Shown here: positions 48,207 through 51,140 of the stretch, piece after piece
How positions within the stretch are numbered: position 1 is the first letter of the stretch
Layout: each line of letters begins with the position of its first letter
From: an uncultured Bacilli bacterium
GTDB taxonomy: Bacteria; Bacillota_I; Bacilli_A; RF39; UBA660
Assembly (NCBI GenBank): GCA_947628345.1
Contig: CANQZM010000003.1
Location: forward strand, 1-54,271
Length of the DNA stretch: 54,271 bases
Reading direction: 5' to 3'
The notes under the pieces: generated by a model
The model's input: the letters and a program-made list of their open reading frames with translations, nothing else
Told to the model about the DNA's origin: nothing
Databases searched by the model: none
Position numbers and translations under genes: made by a program

Positions 48207-49325
48207 TTAGTAATTATGTATATTTACAAAACCACCACTTAAATCAATTCTTAATGATTTTAATTTAGTATATGAGCAATCACCATTAACACAAGAATTT
48301 ACCTTTTCTATAAAATTGTTTATTTCATCATTAGAAAAGTCAGTATTTAGCGTACTAATAATATATTTTAACTCATCATCACTATAAGAGGAAATATCAT
48401 AATATAAATCTAAATCAACTTTGGTTATATTACCATTTTTATTAATATTATATTTTATAGTAGATGTCCTAGTATTAGAAACTATTTTTTCAAAATTACA
48501 ATTTCTATTTATAGAATAACCATAATTATTCAAATTAGTTTGTATGAATTCACAAGTATTATTAATATTAGATTTATTTTTATTATTATTACTAATTCCT
48601 ATAAATAAATCTATCATTGAAAATATGAAAAATATGCATAGTACAATTAAACTTCTTACTAATACACGTGATAAAAGTGAACTTTCACTACCATTATTTT
48701 TAGTTATATTCATTCCTTCATATAATTTTGGAATAACTAATTTTTTATTACCATCACAAATATATATCAATGAATATTTTGTTTCTTTTATCAATTTAGG
48801 GTTATTATAAATTTTCTTTTTATAAATATCGGTATCAAAGAATTTATTAACAAATTCTTGATTGGTATTAAGCTTTGTTAAGTTATCTATAGTATTCATA
48901 TTTATAGCTGCATTTCCTGCCATAACCGATGTTGAATTAGTAATATTTTCTGCCATATATGTTGTCATTATAGCATCAAATGCTAAATCCTTACCTTTTA
49001 TTTTTTCAGAATTTATTATTCTACCTTTTATGATTTTATTATCTTCAAATTTATAAGAGTATAAGGGAGTAATCAAAAATTTATAAAGACCAATCCCAAA
49101 TATAAGGGCAAATATTATAATATAGGTTACCATAACTATTCCTAAATTATCTAATATAAATGCACTTACAATATCAAAAAAATCACTCAAAAATAAATAT
49201 GGAACTATCACAAATAAAAAAGTACTAAACATTGATATTAGTCCTACAAAACCCCATACTGATATATTAAGGGCTTTTGTTTTTCTCTCAAATTTAAAAG
49301 ATGGATAAAAAATATTATTGTTCAT
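48207..49325 (-). CDS. hypothetical multi-TM membrane protein
   Basis: 372 aa ORF; two N-terminal TM segments and a third central TM. Confidence 0.65.
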   Translation of the reverse strand: MNNNIFYPSFKFERKTKALNISVWGFVGLISMFSTFLFVIVPYLFLSDFFDIVSAFILDNLGIVMVTYIIIFALIFGIGLYKFLITPLYSYKFEDNKIIKGRIINSEKIKGKDLAFDAIMTTYMAENITNSTSVMAGNAAINMNTIDNLTKLNTNQEFVNKFFDTDIYKKKIYNNPKLIKETKYSLIYICDGNKKLVIPKLYEGMNITKNNGSESSLLSRVLVRSLIVLCIFFIFSMIDLFIGISNNNKNKSNINNTCEFIQTNLNNYGYSINRNCNFEKIVSNTRTSTIKYNINKNGNITKVDLDLYYDISSYSDDELKYIISTLNTDFSNDEINNFIEKVNSCVNGDCSYTKLKSLRIDLSGGFVNIHNY

Positions 49326-49472
49326 TAAAAAATCAACTACCTTTCATAATTACTATATCATAAACATTTTTACTTTTAGTAGTTATTTAAAAAAATTGTA
49401 AATTTTATAATTAAAAATGTAAAATATATTGTATAATAAAAGCGTATTATAATTTTTAATTGGAGGTCAAAT

Positions 49473-51140
49473 ATGAAATATGATGTCTGTGTATTAGGAG
49501 GATGTTCTTTAGCTCAAACATTCTTCCAAAAAGTAGATGGTACTTATGCTGATACTCCTGATATTATCTCGCCTGGAGGTAAAGGTGCTAATCAAGCAGT
49601 TGCTGCTTCTAAAGCAGGAGCAAAAACTGTAATGTTAACAAGAATTGGGAAAGATGATATAGGTAAGAAAATATTAGATAATTTAGATTTTTATCAGGTA
49701 GATACTACTAATATTGAAATAGTTGAAGGCTTAGAAAATGATTATTCTAATATTTATATAAAACTTGAAGATAAAGATAATTATATAGAAAGATTTAGTG
49801 GGGCAATAAATAGTTTTACTAAAGATATAGTAGACAAATATCAAGATATTATTTTAAAATCAAAAATTATTGTATGTCAATTAAAAGTACCAAAAGAGGT
49901 TACTGAATATTTGATAAATTTTTGCTATAAAAATAATAAAATATTAATATTAACACCATGTCGACCAGAAAAATTATCTATAACAGAAAAAGAAAATATA
50001 GATTTAATTGATAAGATTTCAATAATTACTTGCAATAGAAAAGAATGTACCACTATTTTTAATACAGATGATATAGAAACTTGCGTAAAAAAATATCCTA
50101 ATAAATTAATTGTAACATTAGGTAGTGAAGGCTTAATTTATTACAATGGTAAAAGAACAATAAGGATGCCTTCAATAAAAACAGAAGTAATTGATACTAC
50201 TGGTGCTGGAGATACTTTAAATGGTAATTTAAGTGCATTTTTATCAAGAGGAATGGATTTACAACATGCCTTAAGAAAAGCTATGTATGCATCAGCTATG
50301 AAATTAATGCAAGAAACAGCCCAAGCTGGTATGCCTTATTATGAAGATTTAGAAAATTTTATTCAAAATGAGAGAAATAAGAAATTTGATTACAGTAATG
50401 AATTAAATTTAGCATTAGACATAATTAAAGATGCCTATGATATGGTTAAATATACTACCAAATTTAAAATAAGTACAAAAGAAGATTATACGTTAGTAAC
50501 TGATATGGACTTATATATAGAAAAGTATTTAATAAAAAAAATAAGAGATAAATTTCCTCAAGATAATTTTGTTACAGAGGAATATAACTCAAATAATAAA
50601 TTAACAAATAGAAGTTGGATTATTGATCCGATTGATAGAACATCACATTTTATTAAAAATGATGGTTTATGGGGAATACAATTAGCATTTTATGATAATG
50701 AGGCAACTAGATTTTCTATAATATATCTACCTGATAAAAAAGAATTATATTATGCAGCAGAGAATATAGGAGCATTTTTAAATAATAATAAAATATTACC
50801 AACAGATGCTGTCCCATTAAATCAGGCTATAGTTGAATTTGGAGGTTCAATATATAAAGAAAGAGATGTTAAAAAAGTTCTACTTGATGATTTTATTACA
50901 GATAATCATTTAATAATCTCAAACGTATTACATGTTAATTCTTGTTGTATTTCATATACAAATTTAGTTTCTAACAAAACAGATGCATTAATAATTTCTT
51001 CTAAAAAGGCTTGGGATATAATGCCTGGAGAATTTTTATGTAAGGTATGTGGTATTCCTATTTATTATTTAGATTCTAATAAAAATGTAAGACTTATTAC
51101 AAAAAATAATGAAATTAAAAAGCTACTTTTACATAAATAA
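49473..51140 (+). CDS. fusion: PfkB/ribokinase-family kinase + inositol-monophosphatase-like phosphatase
   Basis: N-term SPGGKGANQAVAASKAGA and DTTGAGDTLNGNLSAFLSRG; C-term TDMD…VTEEY…IIDPIDRTSHF…AWDIMPGEFL; GGAGG ribosome-binding site. Confidence 0.88.
   Translation: MKYDVCVLGGCSLAQTFFQKVDGTYADTPDIISPGGKGANQAVAASKAGAKTVMLTRIGKDDIGKKILDNLDFYQVDTTNIEIVEGLENDYSNIYIKLEDKDNYIERFSGAINSFTKDIVDKYQDIILKSKIIVCQLKVPKEVTEYLINFCYKNNKILILTPCRPEKLSITEKENIDLIDKISIITCNRKECTTIFNTDDIETCVKKYPNKLIVTLGSEGLIYYNGKRTIRMPSIKTEVIDTTGAGDTLNGNLSAFLSRGMDLQHALRKAMYASAMKLMQETAQAGMPYYEDLENFIQNERNKKFDYSNELNLALDIIKDAYDMVKYTTKFKISTKEDYTLVTDMDLYIEKYLIKKIRDKFPQDNFVTEEYNSNNKLTNRSWIIDPIDRTSHFIKNDGLWGIQLAFYDNEATRFSIIYLPDKKELYYAAENIGAFLNNNKILPTDAVPLNQAIVEFGGSIYKERDVKKVLLDDFITDNHLIISNVLHVNSCCISYTNLVSNKTDALIISSKKAWDIMPGEFLCKVCGIPIYYLDSNKNVRLITKNNEIKKLLLHK

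Follow-up and report, generated by a model that had tools for sequence, protein, structure and literature searches.

A single-chain PfkB kinase and IMPase-like phosphatase fusion in a small clade of uncultured Bacilli

The window analysed here, a 54,271-nucleotide stretch of DNA from an uncultured Bacilli bacterium, encodes a ribokinase-like PfkB kinase domain and an IMPase-fold phosphatase domain on one polypeptide (Table 1). Judged by its sequence conservation across species, this fusion is a genuine enzyme architecture, shared by a small clade of uncultured gut Bacilli. In the reading that we favour, with roughly even confidence, it would carry out two linked steps in the salvage of a single metabolite pool; we prefer this both to a fusion of two unrelated activities for co-expression and to a kinase/phosphatase switch.

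Each half of the window protein clearly belongs to its superfamily. The first matches the Pfam PfkB profile (PF00294) with 150.6 bits against a gathering cut-off of 25.8 (E 7.8e-44) and contains the GGKGxN motif and a DTxGAGD motif with its catalytic Asp; the second matches Inositol_P (PF00459) with 108.8 bits against a gathering cut-off of 27 (E 4.4e-31) and retains Glu369/370, Asp385, Asp388, Thr390 and Asp515. The PfkB profile match begins at residue 33 in the window copy and near the N-terminus in the other intact fusions. Sequence and fold searches of the PDB led from the first half to ribokinases, a PDB sequence search led from the second half to IMPases, and the AlphaFold model (mean pLDDT 93.1, pTM 0.87) is a confident two-domain fold. 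The description of the gene in an earlier note on this DNA, as a single-chain PfkB kinase and IMPase-like phosphatase, is thus upheld by one open reading frame, both Pfam domains and seven intact homologues. A missed stop or frameshift joining two genes, which the same note had named as a possible artefact, was rejected because the architecture is unbroken in seven other MAG species.

Table 1. Coordinates in the window of the fusion gene, its domains and its active-site features
Feature	Position	Strand	Basis or remark
PfkB–IMPase fusion CDS	49473..51140	+	ATG start, 555 aa, single unbroken 555-codon ORF
Shine-Dalgarno-like ggaggtc (GGAGG) 5' of fusion ATG	49461..49467	+	sequence
PfkB/ribokinase-like domain, residues 33-288	49569..50336	+	Pfam
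Inositol_P (IMPase-fold phosphatase) domain, residues 314-536	50412..51080	+	Pfam
Ala14 (GCT)	49512..49514	+	position of ribokinase Asp16; the other fusions and the stand-alone orthologues all have Asp here
Lys138	49884..49886	+	aligned with ribokinase Glu143; Lys throughout subfamily
DTTGAGDT motif, catalytic base Asp247	50193..50216	+	Asp247 at the position of ribokinase Asp255
TEE motif, Glu369/Glu370, metal-ligand region, IMPase motif C	50574..50582	+	sequence motif, alignment
DPIDRTSHF, IMPase motif A, residues 385-393	50625..50651	+	Gly389Arg, codon AGA at 50637-50639
WDIMPG, IMPase motif B, Asp515	51012..51029	+	sequence motif, alignment

A scan of genome contigs yielded seven further intact full-length fusions (L001–L007; 553–555 aa, 64–77% identity) in MAGs whose labels read uncultured Bacilli, Erysipelotrichaceae or Bacillales, which brings the species known to carry the intact fusion to eight, the window species included. 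In a ninth copy of the same architecture (L009:6001-7676), frameshifts disrupt the kinase half, and this copy represents either a pseudogene or an assembly error. Within an order-level sample the whole fusion was present in 2 of 385 genomes, namely the window's own and G409, which is probably the genome that carries L005. No other fusion was encountered among 395 genomes of the class and 392 of the phylum, an absence that is provisional since these draws are samples, and no phage or plasmid record covered 80% of the fusion in one place. A description of a PfkB–IMPase fusion was not found in the open-access literature (most subscription journals lay outside that search); we regard the protein as a new architecture built from well-known domains, a novelty that such a search does not prove. 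Should both domains prove active, the fusion would tie an unassigned diverged ribokinase to an unassigned phosphatase and offer a route to the substrate of both.

Other fusions were also met. The same-family genome G023 encodes a 400-aa chain with a cytidine/deoxycytidylate-deaminase-type domain and an IMPase domain (L020:1045-2244, + strand). IMPase domains with C-terminal extensions of ~200 residues and no Pfam match are found at L016:1546-2841 (+) and L036:862-2166 (-); the extension at L016 contains GHSIG and resembles an alpha/beta hydrolase. A LacI-family regulator and a ribokinase domain share one 618-aa chain in genome G047 (L012:1504-3357, -).

Phylogenetic trees place all fused IMPase domains in one clade (support 100/100), and these sequences show a single origin of the fused phosphatase. 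The kinase halves, together with stand-alone orthologues, likewise form a clade (100/100) that is separate from the true ribokinases, among which is one sited in an rbs operon (L046). The window copy groups with L001, L002 and L003 in both the kinase and the IMPase tree (99/98 each), and such matching groups are consistent with both halves having been inherited together. Stand-alone orthologous kinases occur in two lineages: L008, and three genomes of the genus g118 whose kinases belong to the same subfamily (66–67% identity). The latter nest inside the fusions with moderate branch support (86/84), a position that suggests that they have lost the phosphatase domain. A degenerate IMPase remnant 3' of the stand-alone kinases was looked for and rejected, none being found. 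In either half of the fusion, pairwise comparison gives a dN well below dS, which shows that the clade as a whole is under purifying selection; with synonymous sites close to saturation, dN/dS values (well below 1) are usable only as evidence of constraint. General relaxed selection on the window copy was unsupported by this coarse test, there being no acceleration and few private changes.

The g118 genomes keep the kinase and contain no detected IMPase gene, which indicates that the phosphatase is dispensable there and counts against a strict switch and equally against a two-step reaction in which both steps are obligatory. The earlier note had seen opposing activities in the two halves and a potential kinase/phosphatase switch; we weighed this idea together with that of a futile-cycle controller acting on one sugar phosphate. 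The two domain types do lie on one chain, and bifunctional PFK-2/FBPase-2 provides a precedent for such a switch (with folds unrelated to PfkB and IMPase), but Pfam identifies no regulatory domain in the fusion beyond PfkB and Inositol_P, and retention of the kinase alone in g118 did not bear the idea out; we judge it the least probable of the readings weighed here. Stand-alone kinases, present in two lineages, count in favour of the view that two unrelated housekeeping activities have been fused only for co-expression or stability, with a general sugar-phosphate/IMPase phosphatase that shares no metabolite with the kinase. That IMPase domains in the same bacterial family are joined to other partners (L020, L016 and L036) also speaks for this explanation, whereas co-inheritance of the domains within one fusion clade and the well-ordered inter-domain arrangement in the predicted model speak against it, and we consider it doubtful.

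The kinase active site points away from plain ribose. The ribose contacts of E. coli ribokinase are Asn14, Asp16, Gly42, Lys43, Asn46, Glu143 and Asp255 (PMC9604405), of which Gly42, Lys43, Asn46 and Asp255 are kept in the window copy as G36, K37, N40 and D247. The remainder of the set is altered: the Asn14 position is occupied by Ser, Ala or Thr in the aligned fusions and stand-alone orthologues, the Glu143 position by Lys (K138) in every one of them, and the Asp16 position by Ala in the window copy. Since the subfamily has exchanged two ribose contacts, Asn14 and Glu143, the kinase substrate is likely something other than plain ribose, and we infer that two lysines may accept an anionic substrate. 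An acidic or phosphorylated substrate would explain the replacement of ribokinase Glu143 by Lys138, and where a kinase is paired with a phosphatase, the phosphate taken off may differ from the one put on. It is conceivable, if rather unlikely, that the kinase phosphorylates an already phosphorylated or acidic sugar and the phosphatase takes the phosphate from another position, amounting to an ATP-driven phosphate relocation confined to this clade, with the sites of the window copy retuned and not lost.

The acidic metal ligands of IMPases are located in motifs A (DPxD), B (WD) and C (EE), and the key active-site residues listed for IMP include the glycine of motif A (PMC3871819); with respect to a phosphate contact of that glycine, the literature gave only this listing (PMC3871819). 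In the other seven intact fusions the motif is DPIDGT or DPMDGT, with Gly389 in 7/7 and Arg in 0/7, and the window gene has the only Arg at this position among the IMPase motifs of the loci compared. The reading DPIDRTSHF in place of the usual DPIDGTxNF, to which the earlier note had drawn attention as a possible sign of altered activity or specificity, is therefore real but private to one genome: it is a substitution of the window copy, not a signature of the specificity of the fusion, and DPIDRT is unsuitable as a family signature. Arg389 lowers the claim that the window phosphatase is active, and leaves its membership of the IMPase fold intact. Within that fold, NCBIfam profiles give no narrower name: HisN is the best sub-threshold match (82.8 bits against a cut-off of 275.15), the IMPase model scores 60.3 bits against 332, and the second half falls far below all of the HisN, SuhB-IMPase and CysQ equivalog cut-offs.

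The replacement at residue 14 (D14A) is a second private change of the window copy that the earlier note had missed, so that its proposed alignment check of the catalytic residues has a mixed outcome: most are present, and G389R and D14A affect residues that do not vary among the seven other intact fusions. In E. coli pseudouridine kinase the equivalent of Asp16 binds the 2' and 3' hydroxyls (PMC9247573). Only five substitutions are private to the window copy, and the location of two of them (D14A and G389R) among 14 literature-defined active-site positions out of 555 has a hypergeometric P of 0.006, computed after seeing the data. This copy may thus be weakened at both ends. That it has recently been inactivated or moonlights, with both sites disabled and the fold kept, is a possibility that we rate at somewhat below even; it concerns the window copy and not the family, and is compatible with any of the mechanisms discussed. 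A second IMPase gene in the same genome (G000:C1) adds to the post hoc enrichment in its favour, as loss of the fused phosphatase activity could be tolerated. Conversely, the reading frame, ribosome-binding site and overall constraint are normal, the private changes are few, and each of the two is a single-base change that could be a strain variant or an assembly error.

The genes around the fusion differ at nearly every locus, with the exception of a short downstream stretch common to L003 and L006, and the fusion gene therefore appears to stand alone; assignment of function by gene neighbourhood failed for the same reason, and this variation among neighbours counts against the salvage reading that we favour. 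In L003 and L006 the fusion is also followed, after ~2.2 kb, by a second PfkB kinase gene that is only distantly related (L003:7043-7948 and L006:9872-10777). In the window, a divergent 372-aa ORF (48207-49325, - strand) with only a sub-threshold SMODS match starts ~147 bases from the fusion start. The next genes encode an alanine racemase (alr) and a polysaccharide deacetylase, a pair that is syntenic (64–65% identity) in the same-genus genome G004, which has no fusion at that site; the contig thus fits the genus and is not obviously misbinned. Phosphopentomutase DeoB is present in most intact carriers (G000, G409, G737, G739, G741 and G742), and a phosphopentomutase bypass role for the fusion is accordingly not needed.

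Returning to the linked salvage steps that we favour, the window copy keeps its catalytic residues with the exception of D14A and G389R, and in four genomes (G737, G738, G742 and G409) no IMPase other than the fused domain was found. A single joining event would have linked a PfkB kinase of diverged ribokinase type to a Mg2+-dependent phosphatase with the IMPase fold. Throughout the clade the two domains are most likely both catalytic, acting one after the other on a single pentose- or nucleoside-like metabolite. The kinase would phosphorylate a terminal hydroxyl with Asp247 as base, and the phosphatase (Glu369/370, Asp385, Asp388, Asp515) would remove a phosphate from the same compound or from a downstream product, the net effect being salvage or phosphate relocation as opposed to a regulatory switch. 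In the window copy, where D14A lies in the sugar pocket of the kinase and G389R in the phosphate loop of the phosphatase, one or both sites are probably impaired or altered.

The fusion can be compared with several known systems. In HldE, too, a PfkB kinase is joined to another enzyme of its own pathway, in that case a nucleotidyltransferase; a separate HAD-type phosphatase of the pathway acts on the bisphosphate product of the kinase. The present fusion differs in its partner domain and is only weakly similar to HldE. On Rhizobium plasmids, adjacent and co-directional genes for a ribokinase and then an IMPase lie behind a sugar ABC transporter, so that the same two domain types recur in the same order and on the same strand, there as separate genes in another phylum. 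This independent and distant pairing makes a shared pathway plausible; the proteins are only about 22% identical to the fusion, and the analogy may be coincidental. The plasmid cluster (L109:7893-9722 and L110:7893-9725) comprises genes for a sugar ABC transporter, a phosphotriesterase, an amidotransferase-like protein, BtpA/SgcQ, TenA, the ribokinase and the IMPase.

The comparison extends to the parent families themselves. Ribokinase (RbsK, PfkB family, TIGR02152) has the same fold as the kinase half and provides its best PDB structural matches, and the GGKGANQA, N-x-x-E and DTTGAGD motifs and the equivalents of Lys43, Asn46 and Asp255 are retained. The kinase half nevertheless scores 193.8 bits against the TIGR02152 equivalog cut-off of 299.65, and in addition to the exchanged ribose contacts the fusion subfamily has a shortened lid region and lies outside any rbs operon. 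Similarly, the phosphatase half resembles the IMPase family (PF00459; IMPase/HisN/SuhB/CysQ) in possessing motifs A, B and C and all of the acidic metal ligands, and departs from it in being joined to a kinase and, in the window copy, in its motif A arginine.
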